Shown: in pieces, positions 139-10,522 of the stretch
Layout: every line of letters begins with the position of its first letter
Position numbering within the stretch: position 1 is the stretch's first letter
Origin: Candidatus Tectimicrobiota bacterium
Lineage (GTDB): Bacteria > JACPSX01
Length of the DNA: 10,522 nt
Reading direction: 5' to 3'
Assembly (NCBI GenBank): GCA_016193065.1
Contig: JACPSX010000236.1
Span: 1-10,522, forward strand
The notes under the pieces: model-generated
What the model was told of the DNA's origin: nothing
Database searches by the model: none
Seen by the model: the letters and a program-made list of their open reading frames with translations, nothing else
Program-made: the position numbers and the translations under genes

Positions 139-2217
139 TTAGAGTCCTTCGAAGCGATAGCTGACACCTGCAAACGCCGCGACGCCGCTGGCCGGTACCA
201 GGAAAGGCTCTACCTGGCCCGTGCGGTTGTTCGTGGCAATGATTCCGGAAGTCTCGTACTTCTTGTTCAGCAGATTTTCGACCGCCAGCGAGGCGGTCAT
301 TGTTCCCCCGGGCACTTTCCGCTCATAGGCCAGCTTGCTGTTGAAGACCCAGTAGGGGTTGAGGCGGTCGTGATGATTGGCCTCGTCGTTCAGCAGATAC
401 TGGCTCCCCACGTAGGAACCCGTCAAGCCCACGTTCCAGCCCGCGGCCGGGCGGTAGTTGACACCTCCCCCCAGCCGGTGCCGCGGCACGAGCGGGAAGA
501 AATCTCCCTTCCGGACGGTCTGTGAAAACGTGGGCGCAGGTCCCGAGACGGTCACATCGGTCTCGAAGGTGGCCTCGGTAAACGTGTAATTGAGGAAGCC
601 GTCCATCTGCTCAACCGGGTGAACCTTGAGCGAGACCTCGATTCCCCGGCGCCGGGACTTGTCGATGTTTTGATTGAGCCCGGTGAACTCCACCGGGTCG
701 GTAAAAACAAAGAAGATCTCATCGCGCACGTCGGACTGAAAGAAGGCCAGCGTTCCCTCCCCCCATCCGGCCAGACGGGTCCGGATCCCGACCTCATGAT
801 TTTTCGATTTCACGGGCTTCAGGTCAGGGTTCGAGGTGAAGGCTCCCAGCGCGAACAGCTCGTCCTGCGTGGGAGTGCGGAACCCTTCCGAGTAGGTATA
901 ATAGAACCCCAGAGCGGGAACCGGGTTGTACACGACGCCGGCTCTGGGACTCAGCCTCCTGAACTTCTTGTCGCCGCTGTTGGCGGCGGTGATCCGGTCG
1001 GTGAAATTCAGGCGGTCCAGGTCATAGCGGAAGGCGCCCGTGATGGTCACTTTCGAGGACACATCAAACGAGTCCTGGAGATAAAAACCGTTCGCATTTT
1101 GCCGGGTCGCACGCCGGTTGAGAAACGGGAAGCCGGTGATCGAGGATCCCAGATTCCCGATATCGTGATGGTTGTACTCCGCCCCCAGGGTCAGGACATT
1201 GCGGCGGCCGCCCCAGCGGGTATCCTGGGTGAGCTGAAGGGTCCCTCCCCGGGATTCGATGTTGGTCTCGTCGCGCGTTGTGGAGGTTTGTCCAAAGACA
1301 ACGCTTTCCGTCGCCAGGTGCCGAAAATAGGCGTTTACGGACAGAGAAAGATCCAAGGGCAGCTTCCGGCGGCCGTTCAACACGACCGTATTGAGACGGT
1401 TGTCCTGAAAGTCACCGGGGGTAAAATTCCGCGTGCGGTCAATGGAAAGCACGCTTTCGGGCAGAGAGCCCGCCTGGCTTAACCGGTCATTCACGTGAGT
1501 GAAGGACAGGGACAGGTCCGTCTGGCTTTGGGGCCGGAAGCCGACCTTCCCCTGAAAGCGCCGCACCTTACCTCCCGATTCCTCCCGGAAGCCCCTCTCG
1601 CTGTCCCGCGCCACTCCGAAGAAGTAGTCCCATTTCTGGAAGGGGCCGCCGGCTTGCAGCCGATAGCGCTCCCGGTCAAAGCCCCCTTGCAGGGTCTCAA
1701 GCGTGATCTGAGGTTTCGCGCCCCCGCGCTTGGTGATGATGTTGATCACCCCTGAGAGGGCATTCTTGCCGAACGGAGCGGCTGCGCCCGGCAGGATCTC
1801 GATGCGCTCCACATCCTCCAGGGGCACGAGATCAAAGTTCGTCTGGTTGAAATCAGGCTGGTTCACCCGCACGCCGTCCACAAAGACGCTGATGGAGGGA
1901 ACGGGCTGGGCGTTAAACCCCCTCAAGTCGACCGTGGGTTGAAAGGAATTGCCCACTTGATCAAACACCACGATGCCGGGCTGGTTCTGGAGGACTTCCT
2001 GGAGGGTCTTGGCCCCGGAGGCTTTGATTTCTTTCTCGGTGAGAATCGTCACATGGGCAGGCAGGCGCTGGACATCGAAGCCCGCGTCCGGGAGACGGGT
2101 GGCGCTGACCACCACCTCTTCGACCCCTTCTCCAGCCGGGTCGCGCTGGGCAGAAAAACCCGGGTTCGCTACTCCCACAAGCAGGCTCAACGCCGCAATC
2201 CTCAAAAGCCGTTTCAT
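139..2217 (-). CDS. btuB: TonB-dependent outer-membrane receptor, probably vitamin B12 (BtuB-like)
   Basis: This 692-residue protein most likely imports cobalamin across the outer membrane using TonB/ExbBD energy. Residues 1-23 form a signal peptide (basic start, hydrophobic core, cleavage after FSA). A TonB box follows at about 33-40 (EEVVVSAT). The plug domain spans about 48-166, with the segments VDLRGF, VFVDGVRVNQ, LEDVERIEILPG and SGVINIITKRGG typical of family PF07715. The rest is a beta-barrel rich in alternating aromatic residues, including the signature FRTPTQDELF, and ends near an aromatic last strand (SYRFEGL). Length is normal for the family (BtuB is about 600, relatives up to 750). 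The ATG at 2217 has an SD (GGAAGAGGAG) ending 7-8 bases upstream. The substrate call rests mainly on the two cobalamin riboswitches in its leader; from the protein alone another corrinoid or a siderophore is possible. No btuFCD genes are visible here. Confidence 0.88.
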   Translation of the reverse strand: MKRLLRIAALSLLVGVANPGFSAQRDPAGEGVEEVVVSATRLPDAGFDVQRLPAHVTILTEKEIKASGAKTLQEVLQNQPGIVVFDQVGNSFQPTVDLRGFNAQPVPSISVFVDGVRVNQPDFNQTNFDLVPLEDVERIEILPGAAAPFGKNALSGVINIITKRGGAKPQITLETLQGGFDRERYRLQAGGPFQKWDYFFGVARDSERGFREESGGKVRRFQGKVGFRPQSQTDLSLSFTHVNDRLSQAGSLPESVLSIDRTRNFTPGDFQDNRLNTVVLNGRRKLPLDLSLSVNAYFRHLATESVVFGQTSTTRDETNIESRGGTLQLTQDTRWGGRRNVLTLGAEYNHHDIGNLGSSITGFPFLNRRATRQNANGFYLQDSFDVSSKVTITGAFRYDLDRLNFTDRITAANSGDKKFRRLSPRAGVVYNPVPALGFYYTYSEGFRTPTQDELFALGAFTSNPDLKPVKSKNHEVGIRTRLAGWGEGTLAFFQSDVRDEIFFVFTDPVEFTGLNQNIDKSRRRGIEVSLKVHPVEQMDGFLNYTFTEATFETDVTVSGPAPTFSQTVRKGDFFPLVPRHRLGGGVNYRPAAGWNVGLTGSYVGSQYLLNDEANHHDRLNPYWVFNSKLAYERKVPGGTMTASLAVENLLNKKYETSGIIATNNRTGQVEPFLVPASGVAAFAGVSYRFEGL

Positions 2218-2227
2218 CTGGATCTCT

Positions 2228-2250
2228 CCTCTTCCCCCCGCGGGGAAAGG
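2228..2250 (-). promoter_or_regulatory. RBS-sequestering hairpin (P13/L13) of the proximal cobalamin riboswitch
   Basis: On the minus strand, CCUUUCC (2250-2244) pairs with GGAAGAGG (2235-2228) with one bulged G. The 3' arm is the Shine-Dalgarno sequence of the receptor gene. The 8-base loop (2243-2236, CCGCGGGG) contains CGCGGG, the exact reverse complement of CCCGCG in the aptamer's L5 (2327-2322). In cobalamin riboswitches a L5-L13 kissing contact formed on ligand binding stabilises this hairpin and blocks ribosome entry. The pairing is visible in the sequence; the regulatory outcome is inferred from the family. Confidence 0.8.
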
Positions 2251-2267
2251 TGGATTGTGAATTCGGC

Positions 2268-2408
2268 CCAGACCCGGTCTCCTGGCTCTCGTTCACCCTA
2301 CTTGCCGCGCCTTCCCAGCCTCGCGGGCCAGTGGCTCTTGAAAGCGGCTTTCGTCCCGATCACAGTCGCGGGGCGGCGGAAGCTTCTCACTCCCTTCCCT
2401 CGGTCTGG
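2268..2408 (-). ncRNA. Cobalamin riboswitch, proximal copy
   Basis: The minus strand carries the conserved cobalamin aptamer in order: a P1 stem (CCAGACC at 2408-2402 with GGUCUGG at 2274-2268), GGGAAGGGAGUGAGAAGCUU, CCCCGCGACUGUGAUCGGGA, GCCACUGG, GGCUGGGAAGGCGCG, CAAGUAGG, and the B12 box AGCCAGGAGACCGGG near 2288-2274. It binds adenosyl- or related cobalamin and normally shuts off the downstream gene. It lies directly upstream of the receptor gene and its expression platform is the hairpin at 2228-2250, so control is probably translational. The aptamer assignment is secure; the preferred cobalamin form cannot be read here. Confidence 0.94.
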
Positions 2409-2509
2409 AGCCCTACCTTATTTCTGGTAAATTGCTCTGGCCGGCGCACCTCCTTTCTGTACCCCCCACACAGCCCTGCCCCTCACCGGGAGGAGGACAA
2501 GGAAGGGAT

Positions 2510-2547
2510 AAAAAAATCCCCAGACCCAAAACCAGATGGGCCTGAGG
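2510..2547 (-). terminator. Intrinsic terminator between the tandem riboswitches
   Basis: On the minus strand the arm CCUCAGGCCCA (2547-2537) pairs with UGGGUCUGGGG (2528-2518). This gives 11 continuous pairs with two G-U wobbles and an 8-base loop, followed at once by A and seven U (2517-2510). It is a textbook Rho-independent terminator. It lies about 70 bases downstream of the distal cobalamin aptamer and upstream of the proximal one, so it is the likely attenuator of the distal riboswitch. Confidence 0.88.
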
Positions 2548-2565
2548 ATTGCCTCTTTCCGTCCC

Positions 2566-2581
2566 CAGGTTGTGAAACCTG
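2566..2581 (-). promoter_or_regulatory. Small hairpin in the distal riboswitch expression platform
   Basis: A perfect 6-bp stem with a 4-base loop (CAGGTT, TCAC, AACCTG on the minus strand) sits between the distal aptamer and its terminator. The overlapping stretch CCUGGGGA (2569-2562) can pair with UCUCCAGG in the distal aptamer's L5 region (2677-2670), eight pairs with one wobble. It could be the kissing partner or part of an antiterminator. The complementarity is visible; the role is inference. Confidence 0.4.
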
Positions 2582-2614
2582 ACCCCGGTCCGCGAGGGTC
2601 GCAGATTTCCGCAA

Positions 2615-2769
2615 CCCTGCAGGCAGGTCTTCTGGCTTCCGGATCGTCCTACTGGCTGCGCCTTCCCGGCCTGGAGAGCCAGTGGCTGCTGCAGCGTTCG
2701 TCCCCGGTTACAGCGTCGGGCCCGCTCCCGATTTGCACGGGATTCCCTCTTCCGTGAATACCTGCAGGG
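2615..2769 (-). ncRNA. Cobalamin riboswitch, distal copy
   Basis: A second full cobalamin aptamer lies on the minus strand. P1 is formed by CCCUGCAGGU (2769-2760) and ACCUGCCUGCAGGG (2628-2615). The core has GAGGGAAUCCCGUGCAAAUC, GGGAGCGGGCCCGACGCUGU, AACCGGGGACGAA, GCCACUGGC, GGCCGGGAAGGCGCAGCCAG, UAGGA and the B12 box AAGCCAGAAGACCUGCC (2638-2622). It matches the consensus at least as well as the proximal copy. An intrinsic terminator follows it, so this copy probably acts by premature termination. No gene lies between the two copies, so both serve the receptor gene. Confidence 0.95.
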
Positions 2770-2782
2770 GTAACGATGCTCC

Positions 2783-2812
2783 ATCATCCAACGGCCAGGG
2801 GCCGGGCGTCAA
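2783..2812 (-). promoter_or_regulatory. Putative sigma70 promoter of the riboswitch-btuB transcript
   Basis: The minus strand reads TTGACG (2812-2807), an 18-base spacer, then GATGAT (2788-2783), which is 5 of 6 and 4 of 6 matches to the consensus. Transcription would start near 2775, a few bases before the P1 stem of the distal riboswitch, which is where a promoter is expected. The -10 is imperfect, so the call is moderate. Confidence 0.5.
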
Positions 2813-3196: not shown

Positions 3197-3559
3197 ATGG
3201 ATTACTTGGTATGTAAGGAAGGGGAATTGAGGGAGCGCAGTTGCAGGCTCGTGCAGGCCGGTGACGTACAGATCGGAGTCTTTCGGGTCAAGGGAAAATT
3301 GGTTGCTTACGCCAACAACTGCATACACCAGGGCGGCCCGGTCTGCCAGGGCGAGATCCTGGGCAAGGTCGAAGAAGTCCTGGGGACAGACAAGACCATA
3401 ATCAGCGAGCGCTTTTCGGAAAACGAGATCCACCTCGTCTGCCCCTGGCACGGCTGGGAATATAACCTGGAGACCGGAGAGTGCGCAGCGGATCGCCGCT
3501 TGCGGCTGCGGCCCTACCCTGTCGTACTGCGCGGAGACGAGGTGTACGTTAAGGTGTGA
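3197..3559 (+). CDS. Small Rieske [2Fe-2S] protein
   Basis: This 120-residue cytoplasmic protein consists of one Rieske domain, which carries electrons through a [2Fe-2S] cluster held by two Cys and two His. The ligands are C42-I-H44 and C82-P-W-H85, followed by the usual GWEYNLETGEC stretch. Between H44 and C82 there are 37 residues, against roughly 16-17 in ring-hydroxylating dioxygenase ferredoxins, so there is a larger insertion between the cluster loops, containing one extra cysteine (C50). There is no signal peptide or membrane anchor, which argues against a bc1-type Rieske subunit. The ATG at 3197 is chosen over a GTG at 3083 because GGGAG lies 7 bases upstream and the Rieske fold begins there. 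It is followed closely by the 109-residue gene and an amidohydrolase. Its redox partner is unknown; a role in electron supply or in a multisubunit decarboxylase/oxygenase is inference. Confidence 0.9.
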   Translation: MDYLVCKEGELRERSCRLVQAGDVQIGVFRVKGKLVAYANNCIHQGGPVCQGEILGKVEEVLGTDKTIISERFSENEIHLVCPWHGWEYNLETGECAADRRLRLRPYPVVLRGDEVYVKV

Positions 3560-3597
3560 CGAACCACCGTAGTGCAAAGATCCCCGGGAGGTCTTCT

Positions 3598-3927
3598 ATG
3601 AGCGAACCCAATATCTCCGGCGAGTCCATGATCCCCGACAGGTCTCTGGAGGAGATGGCCTGCCGGCTGTGCCGCCGTTACAGTGATCCTGCCGCGCGGG
3701 AAACCGAGAGGATCGCGGATAAAACCCTGCAGGATCTGCTCTCTCTGGTCATCCACAGCTACTTCCAGCGCCTGGAATCCCGGGAGGAGAACGGGCCGCT
3801 CGCACCGATCCGGCCGGATTCGAACGTCACCGCGACGGAAGTGGTCGTTCTGGTCACGGAGCTGCTCAAAGCGGTCGACGTGGAGGTCTTCGAGCTGGGC
3901 ATGTGGCAGGCCCTCGGCAAGCGCTGA
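3598..3927 (+). CDS. Unrecognised 109-residue helical protein of the Rieske-amidohydrolase cassette
   Basis: I cannot assign a function. The protein is soluble, with no signal peptide or membrane segment, and looks mostly helical. Residues 15-62 are rich in charged and amphipathic sequence and include a C22-x2-C25 pair (ACRLCRRY). After a short proline-containing linker (68-76), residues 78-107 look like a second helical segment ending ELGMWQALGKR. A single CxxC is not enough for a metal site by itself but could act in a dimer. The ATG at 3598 is preferred over the overlapping GTG at 3556 because GGGAGG lies 6 bases upstream. It sits 38 bases after the Rieske gene and about 100 bases before the amidohydrolase, so it is probably co-transcribed and may be a small accessory subunit of the enzyme. 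Confidence 0.75.
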   Translation: MSEPNISGESMIPDRSLEEMACRLCRRYSDPAARETERIADKTLQDLLSLVIHSYFQRLESREENGPLAPIRPDSNVTATEVVVLVTELLKAVDVEVFELGMWQALGKR

Positions 3928-4030
3928 TCCATCGCTTAGGCCCCGCCGCAGTTGAAGTGGGCAGGCGCCTAAAACAGTGGGCCGGTCGAACGATACGGAT
4001 TTGAAAAACGCGATAAGAGGGGGAAAGCAA

Positions 4031-5257
4031 ATGTCTCCAGACATGGGACCCAACGGGAATCAGGGGGTACTCGCAAATGCCGAGCGCCAGGCCGCCGAGC
4101 GAGGCCTGGACCGGTTTCCGATCGTGGATGCCGATGCTCATCACTACGAAATGCAGTCCTGGGGCAGTATCGTAAAGTACATCGAGCACCCCACCACGCG
4201 CCGGCGGGCCGAGGAAGGCATGAAGCTGGGCGCCGGCCGATTCCAGCTCCTCCCCCACCAGTTAGGAGACCAGCAGGTGGCAGGCCGGATCAAGCGGCGC
4301 TTTACCCCCCAGGACCCCTACGAAGGCGTCCTGCACGAGATTGATCGCTTCCAGCGGGAGATGTCACAACTGGGGGTTGATTATTCCGTCGTGTTTCCCA
4401 CGCTCATGCTGAACCTGGGGTTGCACCCCCAGGCCGAGGTGGAATCGGCCATTGCCTGGGCCTACGCCCGCTGGATCACCGAGGAAGTGCTGAACCGCAG
4501 CGAAACCATCAAGACAATGCTCTACATCCCCTTCAACGATCCGGACATGAGTCTGAAGATGGTCGAGACCTTTACCGGCAAGCCCGGAGTCGTGGGTTTT
4601 ATGGTCACCAGTCTGCGCTACCAGCCGGTCCACCACAACCGGTACATGAAGTTCTACAGAGCCGTGGAAGAGTCCGGTTTACCGCTGGCCTTTCACCCGG
4701 TCTATAACTGGAGCGAGCGCTCTTTGGAGCAGTTTGACCGCTTTATCGGGGTACACTCCCTCGGCTTTCCCCTCTACAACATGATCCATTTGACGAACGT
4801 GGTGATCCACGCCATCCCCGAGCGCTTCCCGCGGCTCAAATTCATCTGGATGGAATGCGGGGTGGCCTGGATCCCGTTCCTGATGTTCCGGCTGGACAAC
4901 GAGTACATGATGCGGCCCTCGGAAGCCCCGGGTCTCAAGAAGAAGCCCAGCGAGTACATGCGGGAGTTCTTCTATACGTCCCAGCCCCTGGAGTGGCCCG
5001 ACAATCTGAACCATCTGGCTTATATCTTCGAGATGATCCATGCAGAGACCCAGCTTCTGTATGCCTCGGACTATCCCCACTGGGACTTTGATCTCCCCAG
5101 CCGCATCTACGATCTTCCCTTCCTGACCGAGAAAGCCAAGCGGCGCATCCTGGGGAGAAACTCCCTGGAGCTGTTCCACCTGCCGGTTCCCGAGAAATAC
5201 TCTTCCGGGGAACCAGAAGCAACTACGGTAGGCGACGGCTTCTCACAAAAGAAGTAG
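4031..5257 (+). CDS. Amidohydrolase-2 family metal-dependent enzyme (hydrolase or decarboxylase)
   Basis: This 408-residue protein is a TIM-barrel metalloenzyme of the amidohydrolase-2 type (PF04909), the group that includes ACMSD and related non-oxidative decarboxylases. The start of the barrel is FPIVDADAHHYE, giving D33-x-D35-x-H37 in place of the usual D-x-H-x-H, so Asp replaces the first metal His, as in a known subset of the family. Further likely metal or active-site residues are H222 (LAFHPVYNW), E275 (WMECG), and D347 with H350 (ASDYPHWD), the C-terminal Asp typical of the family. Length is normal. The ATG at 4031 has a GGGGGA Shine-Dalgarno about 7 bases upstream and is preferred over a GTG at 3977. 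The substrate is unknown. Neighbouring Rieske and small helical proteins suggest catabolism of an aromatic or carboxylated compound, but that is inference. Confidence 0.88.
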   Translation: MSPDMGPNGNQGVLANAERQAAERGLDRFPIVDADAHHYEMQSWGSIVKYIEHPTTRRRAEEGMKLGAGRFQLLPHQLGDQQVAGRIKRRFTPQDPYEGVLHEIDRFQREMSQLGVDYSVVFPTLMLNLGLHPQAEVESAIAWAYARWITEEVLNRSETIKTMLYIPFNDPDMSLKMVETFTGKPGVVGFMVTSLRYQPVHHNRYMKFYRAVEESGLPLAFHPVYNWSERSLEQFDRFIGVHSLGFPLYNMIHLTNVVIHAIPERFPRLKFIWMECGVAWIPFLMFRLDNEYMMRPSEAPGLKKKPSEYMREFFYTSQPLEWPDNLNHLAYIFEMIHAETQLLYASDYPHWDFDLPSRIYDLPFLTEKAKRRILGRNSLELFHLPVPEKYSSGEPEATTVGDGFSQKK

Positions 5258-5258
5258 G

Positions 5259-5396
5259 GGAATCCTCGGGTCAGTCAAACGCCCCGGTTCTCCATCCTTC
5301 CCGGTTGGTTCACCGCACCTCGGCAGGCAGGGGACCGGCTGCGGAAGCGCTGGAGTTTCCCGGCTGGGAATGCCCCCTGACGTTGGTGAGGATTCC
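5259..5396. repeat. Nested inverted-repeat structure after the amidohydrolase gene
   Basis: GGAATCCTC (5259-5267) and GAGGATTCC (5388-5396) are perfect inverted copies. Further complementary pairs lie nested inside in the correct order: GTCAG with CTGAC, CTCCA with TGGAG, CCGCA with TGCGG, plus a side hairpin TTCCC/GGGAA near 5357-5370. The whole folds as an irregular rod starting right after the stop codon. There is no U-run, so it is not a standard terminator. It fills most of the gene-free stretch 5258-5448; I see no coding frame there. It may be a 3' UTR structure, a small RNA or a mobile-element remnant. Confidence 0.4.
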
Positions 5397-5448
5397 ATAA
5401 GAGACTCACTTTCAATGGGTTCCTGACTCAAACCCCCGCTCGCTAGGT

Positions 5449-5503
5449 ATTTAAGCAAAATGTATCAATTGCCTTGACAAAGTGGACCTTCAAGATCTAT
5501 ATT
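5449..5503 (+). promoter_or_regulatory. Sigma70-type promoter of the SUF operon
   Basis: TTGACA (5474-5479) is a perfect -35 box. After an 18-base spacer comes TATATT (5498-5503), 5 of 6 to the -10 consensus. An AT-rich stretch just upstream (about 5449-5470) stands out in this GC-rich sequence and could serve as an UP element. Transcription would start near 5510, leaving a leader of about 80 bases before the regulator gene. This is the best promoter in the window and fits a transcript from the Rrf2 gene into sufBCDS. Confidence 0.75.
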
Positions 5504-5535
5504 CTCTTGGGCGATAAGAGAGGGAGGGCTAGGGG

Positions 5536-5573
5536 AAGACCAAAAGAAGTTTTGCTAAGAATCTTAAGGTCTT
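5536..5573 (+). promoter_or_regulatory. Candidate operator / leader dyads before the Rrf2 gene
   Basis: Three inverted repeats lie in the leader: AAGACC (5536-5541) with GGTCTT (5568-5573) as outer arms, CAAAA-GAAG-TTTTG (5541-5554), and TAAGA-A-TCTTA (5556-5566). They lie downstream of the -10 box and upstream of the regulator start. Rrf2/IscR proteins often repress their own operon by binding such sites. The dyads are visible; their use as an operator is inference, and an RNA hairpin is also possible. Confidence 0.35.
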
Positions 5574-5591
5574 ACGGGAAGGGTGGCTCTC

Positions 5592-6080
5592 ATGGATCTG
5601 ATGGAAAATTCAAAAAGGGGAACGGAAAGAAGCTCTTTAATGAACGTGGGGTACCGTGTGGACTATGCAGTCCGGGCCCTCTCGTACCTGGCAGCTCAGC
5701 CTCCCGGCAGGATTGTTCCGAGGGCTGAACTTGAAAAGAAGCAACATATCCCCCCTCACTATCTCTCCAAGATTATGAAAGATCTGGTTTCCGGAGGGCT
5801 GGTGAAATCCTACCTGGGCTGTAGGGGTGGGTTTAGCTTGGCCAGAGCGGCCCAGACGATCAGCATCAAGGAAGTCTATGAAGCCGTAGAAAGACCTCTT
5901 GTCATCATGGAGTGTCTTGAGAAGGGGCCTTCCTATTGTTCCTACATCCCGGTGTGTACCCAGGTCTCGATTTGGCAAAGGGCCCAAACCCTACTGGCAA
6001 ACTTCCTTTCGGGAGTTTCCGTGAATGACATTGCAGATCAAAAAGGTCTGAGGGAGAGATTGGGCGGACTGCACGGCTAA
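5592..6080 (+). CDS. Rrf2/IscR-family transcriptional regulator of the SUF operon
   Basis: This 162-residue DNA-binding protein probably senses iron-sulfur cluster status and controls the suf genes that follow. The winged helix-turn-helix begins at YRVDYAVRALSYLA (21-34), with the recognition region PPHYLSKIMKDLVSGGLVKS and wing CRGGFSLAR (77-85), then the family's IKEVYEAVE. Three cysteines, C108, C116 and C122 (spacing x7, x5), match the position of the cluster ligands of IscR (x5, x5), so it probably binds a cluster; C77 is extra. The start is uncertain. ATG 5592 has GGAAGGG 8 bases upstream, a GTG at 5583 is possible, and ATG 5640 would give a 146-residue protein starting MNVGYRVDYA, closest to the usual Rrf2 N-terminus. 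The gene follows its own promoter and is 42 bases from the next small frame, with no terminator between. Confidence 0.9.
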   Translation: MDLMENSKRGTERSSLMNVGYRVDYAVRALSYLAAQPPGRIVPRAELEKKQHIPPHYLSKIMKDLVSGGLVKSYLGCRGGFSLARAAQTISIKEVYEAVERPLVIMECLEKGPSYCSYIPVCTQVSIWQRAQTLLANFLSGVSVNDIADQKGLRERLGGLHG

Positions 6081-6122
6081 TTCCCGAATAAAACGCAAGA
6101 GTCAACCTTTAAGCACAGAGAG

Positions 6123-6239
6123 ATGAAACCAATGGAAGAAACCGCTCAGGCGACCGCGACACAGGGGGAGATCCTGAGAGCCTTCTCCGGGATCAAGGAC
6201 CCCGACCTGGGCTTAAGAATGGTTCAAGAGGAGAAGTAA
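6123..6239 (+). CDS. 38-residue peptide resembling the N-terminus of a DUF59/MIP18 domain, coupled to sufB
   Basis: An ATG-started frame of 38 codons fills the gap between the regulator and sufB and ends in TAATG, sharing one base with the sufB start. Residues 15-31 ([17 protein letters not shown]) match the opening of the DUF59/MIP18 (SufT/PaaD) fold and of Mrp/ApbC N-termini, where a helix is followed by DPE/DLG. The protein then stops before the rest of the about 100-residue domain, including any conserved Cys. It could be a remnant of a sufT-like gene or a small peptide kept for translational coupling. Its last codons contain the sufB Shine-Dalgarno (AGAGGAGA). Its own SD is weak (AGAGAG); ATG at 6132 is an alternative start. 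The similarity is from memory of the family, not a search. Confidence 0.5.
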
Positions 6240-7696
6240 TGAGCACTTCCACGAACACGATAGAGACCCTGGCAAACCGGGAATACAAATACGGGTTTGT
6301 CACGGAAATCGAAGCGGACGTCGTCCCCCGCGGACTAAACGAGGAAACCGTTCGACTGGTCTCCGCGAAGAAGAATGAACCGGAGTTCATGCTGGAGTGG
6401 CGTCTTAAGGCTTACCGGCATTGGGTGAAGATGGAAAAATCCGAGGGAGAACCGAAATGGGCCAACATCAAGCACCCGCCCATCGATTACCAGGACATCA
6501 TCTACTACTCGGCACCCAAGCCCAAGAAGAAGCTGAACAGCCTGGATGAAGTGGACCCGGAGGTGCTGAGAACGTTCGAGAAGCTGGGCATTCCCCTGGA
6601 CGAACAGAAAAAGCTCAGCGGTGTCGCGGTGGATGCGGTCTTCGACAGCGTTTCCGTGGCGACTACTTTTAAAGAAAAGCTCGCTGAGCTGGGAATTATC
6701 TTCTGCTCGTTCTCCGAGGCGGTGAATAATCACCCGGAGCTGGTCGAGAAGTACCTTGGATCGGTGGTCCCTTACTCCGATAACTTCTTTGCCACCCTGA
6801 ACTCCGCCGTCTTCAGCGACGGATCGTTCTGCTACATCCCGAAGGGCGTGCGCTGCCCCATGGAGCTCTCCACATACTTCCGGATCAATGCGGCGGACAC
6901 GGGCCAGTTCGAGCGCACGCTGATCATCGCCGAAGAGGGCAGTTACGTGAGCTATCTGGAAGGATGCACCGCGCCCATGCGGGACGAGAACCAGTTGCAC
7001 GCCGCGGTCGTGGAGCTCATCGCCCACGACAACGCCACCATCAAGTACTCGACCATCCAGAACTGGTACCCCGGGGACAAGGACGGGAAGGGGGGCATCT
7101 ATAACTTCGTCACCAAGCGCGGAAAGTGCCTAGGAAGGAGCTCCAAGATCTCGTGGACCCAGGTGGAGACGGGCTCGGCCATCACCTGGAAGTACCCCAG
7201 TTGCATCCTCCAGGGTGACAACTCCGTGGGTGAGTTTTATTCGGTGGCGTTGACCAACCACCACCAGCAGGCCGACACGGGAACCAAGATGATCCACATG
7301 GGCAAGAACACCCGGAGTACGATCGTCGCGAAAGGAATCTCCGCGGGGTATGGCCAGAACACCTACCGCGGCCTGGTCAAGATCCTGAAGAGCTCCACGG
7401 GGGCGCGCAACTACACGCAGTGCGACTCGCTGCTCATCGGCGACAAATGCGGGGCCCACACCTTCCCCTACATAGAGGTCAAGAACTCCACGGCCCGGAT
7501 GGAGCACGAGGCGTCCACATCGAAGATCGGGGATGACCAGATTTTCTACTGCAACCAGAGGGGAATCTCGAAGGAAGACGCCGTGAACCTGATCGTGAAC
7601 GGCTTCTGCAAGGAGGTATTTCGGAACTTGCCGATGGAGTTTGCCGTAGAGGCGCAGAAGTTGCTCAGTATCAGCTTAGAGGGCAGCATCGGCTAA
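6239..7696 (+). CDS. sufB: SufB, Fe-S cluster scaffold subunit
   Basis: SufB is the core scaffold of the SufBC2D complex, where iron-sulfur clusters are built in the cytoplasm from persulfide sulfur. The 485-residue protein is full length (E. coli 495) and follows the family throughout: an N-terminal helical part ([16 protein letters not shown] at about 42-57), the beta-helix core with [27 protein letters not shown] and [14 protein letters not shown], and the C-terminal domain. Cys395 in TQCDS and Glu424 in RMEHEAS correspond to the E. coli residues C405 and E434 needed for cluster assembly. The ATG overlaps the stop of the 38-residue frame and has an AGAGGAGA Shine-Dalgarno. SufC follows after 33 bases. 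Function is clear by family; nothing is truncated. Confidence 0.98.
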
Positions 7697-7729
7697 ATTT
7701 TCCAACACTTCGTCAAAAAGGGACAAGGC

Positions 7730-8500
7730 ATGCTAGAAATCAACAACCTGCACGTGAAAGTGGGCAACCAGAAAATCCTCAAAGGCGTAAATCTCAAGGT
7801 AAACGCCGGAGAGGTCCACTCCATTATGGGCCCCAACGGCTCCGGCAAGAGCACCCTGGCCCAGGTCCTGGCCGGCCGGGAGGGGTATGAAGTCACCGCC
7901 GGAGAGGTGATTTACGAAGGGAAAAACCTCCTGGAGATGCCGCCCGAGGAGCGCGCCTGCGCCGGGGTCTTCCTGGCCTTCCAATACCCGGTGGAGATCC
8001 CCGGGGTGAACAACGCCTACTTCCTGAAAGCGGGCCTAAACGCCATCCGCAAGTACCAGGGCCTTGAGGAACTTGACGCCATGGATTTCCTCCCTCTGGT
8101 CAAGGAGAAGATGAAGGCCCTGGAGATAGACGAACTTCTCCTGAACCGGTCGGTGAACGAGGGTTTCTCGGGCGGTGAGAAGAAGCGCAACGAGGTATTC
8201 CAGATGTCGGTACTGGAGCCCAAGCTCGCCATCTTGGACGAGACCGATTCCGGGCTGGACATTGACGCTTTGAGGATCGTCGCCAACGGCGTCAACGCGC
8301 TGCGCAGCCCCGATCGTGCCATTATCGTCGTCACCCATTACCAGCGGCTCCTCAACTACATCATCCCCGACTACATCCACGTGCTGGTGGATGGCCGGAT
8401 CGTCAAATCCGGCGGCAAAGAGCTGGCCCTGGAGCTGGAAAACAAGGGCTATGCCTGGGTCGAGGCCGAGATCCACACCGCCGCGCCGGCAAACGCCTGA
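7730..8500 (+). CDS. sufC: SufC, ABC-type ATPase of the SUF scaffold complex
   Basis: SufC is a soluble ABC ATPase that binds SufB and SufD and drives the conformational change needed for cluster assembly; it is not a transporter. The 256-residue protein has Walker A GPNGSGKS (34-41, K40), a Q-loop around FLAFQYP, the SufC-type signature SGGEKKRNE (147-155), Walker B LAILDE (166-171) followed by TDSGLDIDAL, and the switch His203 in VVTHYQ. These positions equal those of E. coli SufC. The acidic SGLDIDAL stretch and KKRNE are typical of SufC rather than transport ATPases. It lies 33 bases after sufB and 15 bases before sufD. Confidence 0.98.
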   Translation: MLEINNLHVKVGNQKILKGVNLKVNAGEVHSIMGPNGSGKSTLAQVLAGREGYEVTAGEVIYEGKNLLEMPPEERACAGVFLAFQYPVEIPGVNNAYFLKAGLNAIRKYQGLEELDAMDFLPLVKEKMKALEIDELLLNRSVNEGFSGGEKKRNEVFQMSVLEPKLAILDETDSGLDIDALRIVANGVNALRSPDRAIIVVTHYQRLLNYIIPDYIHVLVDGRIVKSGGKELALELENKGYAWVEAEIHTAAPANA

Positions 8501-8515
8501 CCGGGGGGCAGAACA

Positions 8516-9859
8516 GTGACCGTGGTGACGCAACAAATAGACAGTTACCTGGAAAGCTTTGCGCGGTTCGAGAACAGCGCCCCGGGAAGCGGCCAAGGGT
8601 GGGCACGCTCGATCCGCCAGGCGGCAATCACCCGCTTCTCCGAGCTGGGGTTTCCGACCATCCGGGATGAGGACTGGCGGTTCACCAGCGTGGCTCCGAT
8701 CGCCCAGGCGGACTTCAAGCTCGCCCGGGACGGCCGCTTTGCACTGTCGTCCCGGGAGATCGGGCAATTCACATTCCCTGGCCTAGCATGCAGCCAGCTC
8801 GTCTTCGTGAACGGACGATACTCACCGGAGCTTTCCTCGCTCGGGCTCCTACCCAACGGGGTGACCGTCGGGAGCCTGGCGTGGTTCCTCGACAATGATC
8901 CGGATCTCGCAGAACCTCATCTCGCCCGGTACGCCGACTACCAGCAGGACGCCTTTGCAGCCCTTAACACCGCCTTCATGGAAGACGGCGCGTTTGTGCA
9001 CATCCCCAGAGGGACGGTGCTTCCGGAACCGATCCACCTGCTGTACATCTCCACCGCGGCCGGCGCTCCGCTCATCACCCATCCGCGAAATCTGATTCTG
9101 GCGGACGAGGATAGCCAGGCGACCATCGTGGAGGACTACGTCTCGCTGGGCAGCGGCGTCCATTTCTCGAACTCGGTCACGGAAGCGGTGCTGGGCCAGA
9201 ATAGCGTGCTGAGCCACTACCGGCTCGAGCGCGAGAGCAAGGAGGCGTTCAACATCTCGACCCTGCGGTTTCAGCAAGGCCGGAGCAGCAGCCTCGCGTC
9301 CCACTCGGTGTTGCTGGGCGGAGCGCTGATGCGCAACAACATCCACCCGGCTCTGGCGGGCGAGGGCTGCGATTGCCTGATCAACGGCCTGTTCATGGCC
9401 ACCGGCCGGCAGCACATGGATAACTACATGAAGGTCGAACATGCCGGCCCGCACTGCAACAGCCGGCAGTTCTACCATGGCATCCTCGATGGTCGTTCGC
9501 GGGGCGTCTTTCACGGCCGGATCATCGTGCACAAGGATGCCCAGAAGACCGACGCCAAGCAGACGAACAGGAACCTGCTGCTCTCGGAGAACGCTCAGAT
9601 CGATACCAAGCCGCAGCTTGAAATTTACGCCGACGACGTGAAGTGCACCCATGGAGCGACCATCGGCCAGATCGACGAGGACGCGATCTTCTACCTGCGC
9701 TCCCGCGGCATTGCCGAGGAATCGGCCCGCGCCCTCTTGCTCTTCGCCTTCGCCGGGGAATGCCTCCAGCGCATGAAGATCGAGCCCATCCGCAAGCATC
9801 TGGAAGCGCTCGTCACGCAATGGTCGCCCTTGGGGAAACTCCTGGAGGAGGCCCGATGA
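8516..9859 (+). CDS. sufD: SufD, Fe-S scaffold partner of SufB
   Basis: SufD pairs with SufB in the SufBC2D complex and is needed for iron entry into the nascent cluster. The 447-residue protein shows the N-terminal helical segment ([20 protein letters not shown] at about 35-54), a beta-helix core ([18 protein letters not shown]), and the C-terminal family block with [20 protein letters not shown], then Cys377 and His379 in VKCTHGAT, equivalent to E. coli C358 and H360. The start is GTG at 8516, with only a weak G-rich SD; GTGs at 8522 and 8525 are near alternatives. The stop overlaps the sufS start (ATGA). Length is normal for the family. Confidence 0.97.
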
Positions 9860-10522
9860 CCATCGCCAGTGACACTATCAGCAAAAAGATCCGCCCGGAT
9901 CGACCGTCGGGCTTTGATGTCGAGAACATCCGGCGGGACTTCCCGATCCTGGCCCGGAAGGTCCATGGCAAGCCGCTGGTCTATCTCGACAACGCCGCCA
10001 CGACCCAGAAGCCCCAGGTCGTGATCGACACCATCACGCGGTACTATCAGGAGGATAACTCCAACATCCATCGCGGTCTCCACTTCCTGAGCGAAAAGGC
10101 CACCCAGGACTATGAAGCCGCTCGCGCCAAGGTGAGGCGGTTTCTAAACACTGCGCAGGACCGGGAAATCATCTTCGTTCGCGGCGCTACGGAGGGCATC
10201 AACCTCGTCGCGCAGACTTACGGCCGGGCATCCGTGAAAGCAGGTGATGAGATCGTCCTCTCCATCATGGAGCATCACTCCAACATCGTCCCCTGGCAAA
10301 TGTTGTGCGAGGAAAAGGGTGCTCGCTTGCGGGTCGTCCCCATTAACGACGAGGGCGAGCTGTTGCTCGATGAATACGAGAAGCTGCTCAATGCAAGAAC
10401 AAAGCTCGTGTCCATCGTTCACATATCGAACGCCCTGGGCACGATCAACCCGGTCAAGCAGATCATCCAGATGGCGCACGACCGGGGCATTCCCGTCCTG
10501 GTCGACGGGGCTCAGGCGGTCC
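9856..10522 (+). CDS. sufS: SufS, cysteine desulfurase (partial, runs off the window end)
   Basis: SufS is a PLP-dependent class V aminotransferase-fold enzyme that turns L-cysteine into L-alanine and holds the sulfur as a persulfide for SufBCD. The window contains the first 222 residues out of about 410. They show [11 protein letters not shown] (43-53), [30 protein letters not shown], the PLP-stacking His141 in [23 protein letters not shown], and VDGAQAV with Asp217 and Gln220 that contact PLP. The PLP-binding lysine and the persulfide cysteine lie beyond the edge. The N-terminus is about 18 residues longer than in E. coli. The ATG overlaps the sufD stop by four bases, with GGAGGAGG just upstream. 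A sufU/iscU-type gene commonly follows in this operon type but is outside the window. Confidence 0.97.

Follow-up and report, generated by a model that had tools for sequence, protein, structure and literature searches.

Background

In Enterobacteria the btuB riboswitch is a single cobalamin aptamer that controls an outer-membrane receptor at its ribosome-binding site (RBS). The leader described here likewise combines a cobalamin aptamer with a receptor at the RBS, but it has two aptamers and its receptor is not a clear BtuB. Tandem AdoCbl leaders are rare, with several aptamers in less than 1% (PMC2258182), and 26 AdoCbl doublets are listed as pseudo-cooperative (PMC9481103, after Sudarsan 2006). 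As in our leader, these tandems have two aptamers per leader and a separate expression platform for each, whereas the outputs found here differ, being a terminator and then an RBS. Closer in output are the 'bi-mechanism' tandems, defined from SAM-II/SAM-V and some SAM-II/SAM-II pairs (PMC9481103), where the terminator also comes first and the RBS of the same gene second, although ligand and aptamer class are other than those of the present leader.

Tandems lack a comprehensive sorting by output (PMC9481103). The part of the contiguous-riboswitch survey PMC12452182 that was consulted holds no mixed cobalamin tandem, and no published mixed-output cobalamin tandem was found in the literature searched, the coverage of which is incomplete. 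A first-pass annotation of this DNA had called such a mixed tandem unusual, which is true for cobalamin (less than 1%, PMC2258182; 26 doublets, PMC9481103), while for SAM mixed output is already a named architecture.

Two cobalamin aptamers on one leader

The window, that is the whole stretch of 10,522 nt analysed, carries on its minus strand a leader of about 560 nt preceding a TonB-dependent receptor gene (2217-139). The first-pass annotation had proposed two cobalamin aptamers in series and their scoring with the Rfam covariance model; the scoring was run, and both lie well above the RF00174 gathering cut-off of 31.5 bits. The distal (first) aptamer at 2605-2780 matches the full model (1-189, 110.1 bits, E 1.8e-27), P1 closing helix included, and the proximal (second) aptamer matches model positions 46-168 at 2399-2276 (82.3 bits, E 1.6e-19). 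In a permissive scan of the leader no other Rfam family exceeded its own cut-off. Both aptamers are, judged by sequence, predicted to bind cobalamin, and no further cobalamin riboswitch was found in the genome (2.9 Mb, 86% complete).

The P1 of the proximal aptamer was left unaligned by Rfam and is formed by CCAGACC (2410-2404) pairing with GGUCUGG (2274-2268) in 7 bp. Because this helix closes the aptamer, which with P1 spans 2268-2410 on the minus strand, the earlier bounds of 2268-2408 were nearly right. When aligned with the second aptamers of L097, L096 and L086, 92.9% of the P1 cells are paired, and among the four sequences changes on both sides (A-U versus G-C, U-A versus C-G) are seen at two of the seven pairs. 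The helix is lost when the partner is slid by 1-3 columns. It should be noted that the covariation comes from four sequences only, and that 71 of 500 shuffles match the observed count.

A recent duplication of the window aptamers was rejected, as the partners share just 71% identity. The earlier view that nothing gene-like lies between them holds, since the ORFs crossing the gap overlap the structured aptamers and show no gene signs. The sole promoter-like site found in the leader scan (TTGACG-18-GATGAT, 2812-2783, minus strand) lies immediately before the distal aptamer and is a weak match, agreeing with the consensus at 9 of 12 positions.

The terminator after the distal aptamer

Stem search, folding and shuffles identified an intrinsic terminator at 2509-2550 on the minus strand, with a stem (2550-2515) of 14 pairs with G-U allowed, a loop of 8 and a folding energy of -23.4 kcal/mol, followed by U7. 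When the 205-nt inter-aptamer gap was dinucleotide-shuffled 2000 times, no stem of 14 pairs arose. The terminator and its seven U had been correctly noted before, while the length of the stem is 14 pairs and not 11 bp. Transcription is predicted to terminate at 2550-2515 after the distal aptamer.

A candidate antiterminator strand, CCUGGGGA (2562-2569, minus strand), pairs with UCCUCAGG (2548-2541) in 8 bp at -11.3 kcal/mol. In the folding this pairing is partly populated in RNA prefixes before the 3' arm of the terminator exists, and it is gone afterwards. The same strand is a possible partner of the distal L5, UCUCCAGG (2677-2670). Each of these two pairings is attained by about 7-8% of shuffles, and the antiterminator and distal-L5 roles of 2562-2569 are therefore only suggestive. 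The L5 pairings of the window do not recur in related loci. Kissing pairs from L5 to the RBS and from L5 to the linker are present in the window and were rejected as proof of a mechanism, being equalled by 7-8% of shuffles and absent from related loci.

The ribosome-binding site after the proximal aptamer

Downstream of the second aptamer no terminator was found before the start codon, which is separated from the Rfam match by 58 nt. The Shine-Dalgarno (SD) sequence of the receptor, AGGAG at 2230-2226, lies 8 nt before the AUG, and a hairpin at 2226-2250 on the minus strand extends over part of it, with 2250-2242 pairing to 2237-2234 and 2232-2228 (-13.7 kcal/mol). The SD bases G2229 and G2228 have an unpaired probability of 0.02 in folds of three lengths. 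The hairpin had been described as burying the SD, which is partly right, because it is present but pairs only 3 of the 5 nt (AGG). Further, an element adjacent to the RBS is conserved across second aptamers, and the window hairpin aligns with it. Against the reading we favour, the hairpin forms without ligand in the fold model. We infer that the second aptamer controls the RBS.

A recurring UCGAGG(GA)-like element is seen after the second aptamer, upstream of or over the RBS, in L034, L086, L087, L090, L099 and L103, and the window, L096 and L097 have the form CCCCGNGGGGGGA where those loci have it. The invariant GGGAAGG core could pair with the anti-SD strand CCUUUCC, but any pyrimidine-rich strand would do the same, and this candidate was set aside.

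The same layout in other genomes

When 84,980 genomes were scanned by pattern for pairs of cobalamin cores spaced as in the window (31-nt range), 63 stretches were obtained. Eighteen of these were scanned with Rfam, and 15 carry two same-strand RF00174 matches, while L080, L036 and L042 carry one. Four loci, L034 (Candidatus Auribacter), L039 ('Acidobacteria' MAG), L086 (Deltaproteobacteria) and L090 (Geobacter), with MAG record names kept as deposited, have the order aptamer, strong terminator, aptamer, no terminator and TonB receptor, the receptor starting 11-34 nt past the Rfam match of the second aptamer. A BLAST search with the second aptamer in 386 same-domain genomes revealed, among the best 150 matches listed, four more tandems, of which L097, L099 and L103 are mixed; the tandem L104 has no terminator between its aptamers. 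L099 shows a weak terminator-like match (-12.6 kcal/mol) after its second aptamer. L125, which came from an earlier survey, is mixed as well, with a second aptamer of 29.6 bits, below the Rfam cut-off.

Going by these sequences, the window layout is thus not unique, eight further mixed tandems being found before TonB-receptor genes (L034, L039, L086, L090, L097, L099, L103 and L125), and the receptors of all eight contain a Plug domain. For the receptors of L034, L039, L086 and L090 the B12-receptor model scores best, yet below its cut-off; the window receptor differs in this respect. In the Firmicutes tandems L054, L057 and L088 a terminator follows each aptamer, as it does in L073, where the gene is far away or beyond the contig.

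A tree that included 29 single riboswitches unites the second-position aptamers from the window, L039 and L086 in a clade with support 1.000, separate from their first-position partners, and also joins the L039 and L086 first aptamers (support 0.963). The second aptamer of the window is 86% identical to that of L039 and 71% identical to its own partner. Because of these position-wise clades and identities, the two positions in loci of the L039, L086 and window type appear to be separate lineages of long standing. Local duplication is suggested for some Firmicutes pairs, for example L057, whose partners are 91% identical. The recurrence of the layout across separate lineages before B12-type receptors points to selection rather than accident.

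Other tandems were also seen. L050, L060 and L093, from Acidobacteria MAGs, are near-identical tandems with 82-83% identity between partners, located before a TonB-receptor-like protein, and have no clear U-tailed terminator between the aptamers. By eye, L061 precedes a gene for a PEP-CTERM-type secreted protein-like product, and L068 and L087 precede genes for prepilin-like N-methylation proteins; neither kind has an obvious B12 link.

A Shine-Dalgarno sequence between terminator and second aptamer

Between the terminator and the second aptamer lies a near-perfect SD, AGAAAGGAGGUG (2447-2458, minus strand), which can pair over 12 nt with the 3' end of the 16S rRNA and is not followed by a suitably spaced start codon. 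No other 12-nt anti-16S match is present on either strand of the window. An SD-like match of at least 9 nt occurs in six of the nine mixed tandems (window 12, L034 10, L086 9, L103 11, L097 9 and L125 12 nt) and is weak or lacking in L039, L090 and L099. A start codon with usable spacing is absent in five of these six; the exception is L125, where an AUG and an ORF of three codons follow the match. L087 also has a 12-nt match, with no terminator seen there. Matches of at least 9 nt occur in 0.7% of random 165-nt stretches, a null that is generous because single switches of the terminator type, L006 among them, ordinarily have a terminator and then an SD in their leader. The idea that the extra SD serves a leader ORF was rejected, since no consistent start codon was seen by eye.

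A tentative and rather doubtful explanation is that the extra SD is a start-less loading site that holds the 30S subunit on transcripts past the first switch, so that the mRNA is protected or quickly translated. The receptor mRNA would then be kept ready until the second switch opens. This idea has a precedent, as a riboswitch-controlled SD has been proposed as a standby site in the Sinorhizobium metA SAM-II leader (PMC9373788). Both leaders have an SD lacking a start codon at the usual spacing, but the metA SD is the one controlled by the riboswitch, whereas the window SD precedes the second aptamer.

That the SD is instead left over from a lost gene has to be taken seriously as an alternative to the standby site, because leaders of the L006 type are ordinary and because an SD-like match ends a btuD-like frame in L127 (1-5000). 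This operon consists of aptamer 1, btuF-, btuC- and btuD-like genes, aptamer 2 and a TonB receptor, with the Btu names read from the translations and the SD-like sequence forming the end of the btuD-like ORF. Such an operon form is possibly the ancestor of the compact tandem.

Mode of action and alternatives

We consider it probable that the leader is a bi-mechanism tandem, with two independent cobalamin off-switches on one RNA acting on transcription and then on translation. Corrinoid bound by the distal aptamer would let the terminator form, and most transcripts would stop. Those that escape would carry the second aptamer, which when bound would cause the hairpin at 2250-2226 to hold part of the receptor SD, and with the SD held translation of the receptor would not start. 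With no corrinoid present, the antiterminator (2569-2562/2548-2541) and an opened RBS hairpin would allow the receptor to be made.

That B12 is read first on transcription and then on translation, as the first-pass annotation had it, fits the anatomy and its recurrence in eight other loci, while the control by ligand is the part that we infer. The steeper repression expected from such a design appears weak: computed for two independent off-switches, the 90-to-10% range narrows from 81-fold to 40-fold at best, with an effective Hill coefficient of 1.19. The larger gains are more likely to be a deeper total repression and an mRNA kept in store for re-use.

The history suggested by L127 could also account for the first half of the leader. 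A terminator-type riboswitch and its SD would have lost their own gene and landed before a second riboswitch-receptor unit, with the first switch now adding little. The SD-like sequence closing the btuD-like ORF ahead of aptamer 2 in L127 is consistent with this, as is the normal order of terminator and then SD in single terminator-type switches, e.g. L006. Yet nine loci from separate lineages have both the terminator and the first aptamer intact, and the clades formed by the L039 and L086 first aptamers (0.963) and by the second aptamers of the window, L039 and L086 (1.000) point to long co-inheritance, so that we regard a present leader of this kind as unlikely; a relic origin is in any case compatible with present function. 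When translation from a leader is repressed, Rho termination can follow as a secondary effect. By Rho-dependent or weak-hairpin termination the second switch could act on transcription like the first, which would give an ordinary pseudo-cooperative tandem, the class in which AdoCbl doublets are listed (PMC9481103). The stretch from the second aptamer to the start codon has no intrinsic terminator, however, the RBS-proximal element is conserved, and the Firmicutes loci of that type show clear second terminators, all of which makes two transcriptional switches quite improbable here.

The first-pass annotation had further allowed for an unrecognised internal promoter that would make the second riboswitch independent of the first. 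A consensus scan found no sigma-70-like site between the aptamers, although the sigma-70 consensus may not be that of the host, and even the site found before the distal aptamer is a weak one. We hold an internal promoter to be very unlikely. If the bi-mechanism reading is right, cobalamin joins the ligands of tandems that mix transcriptional and translational control, and the loci provide a concrete set of leaders for asking whether two-step control saves mRNA and whether the start-less SD is a standby site.

Receptor gene and genomic neighbourhood

The regulated gene (139-2217, minus strand) encodes a TonB-dependent outer-membrane receptor of 692 aa with Pfam Plug and TonB_dep_Rec_b-barrel domains. 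It had been described as btuB-like; the receptor family with plug and barrel is right, but the score of 129.4 bits with the BtuB model TIGR01779 (NCBIfam) is far below the equivalog cut-off of 599.7, and siderophore and PqqU models outscore BtuB in NCBIfam and PDB comparisons. Because PqqU and siderophore receptors are more similar to this receptor than BtuB is, its cargo is uncertain and perhaps not plain B12. Peptide patterns found no relatives of it in the genome contigs searched. A B12-binding domain was detected in the host genome (86% complete) and CobS was not, and the host may therefore depend on imported corrinoid.

On the plus strand the rest of the window (3197-10522) is ordinary, with genes for a Rieske protein, an amidohydrolase, an Rrf2 regulator, sufB, sufC and sufD, and the start of a cysteine-desulfurase-like gene.
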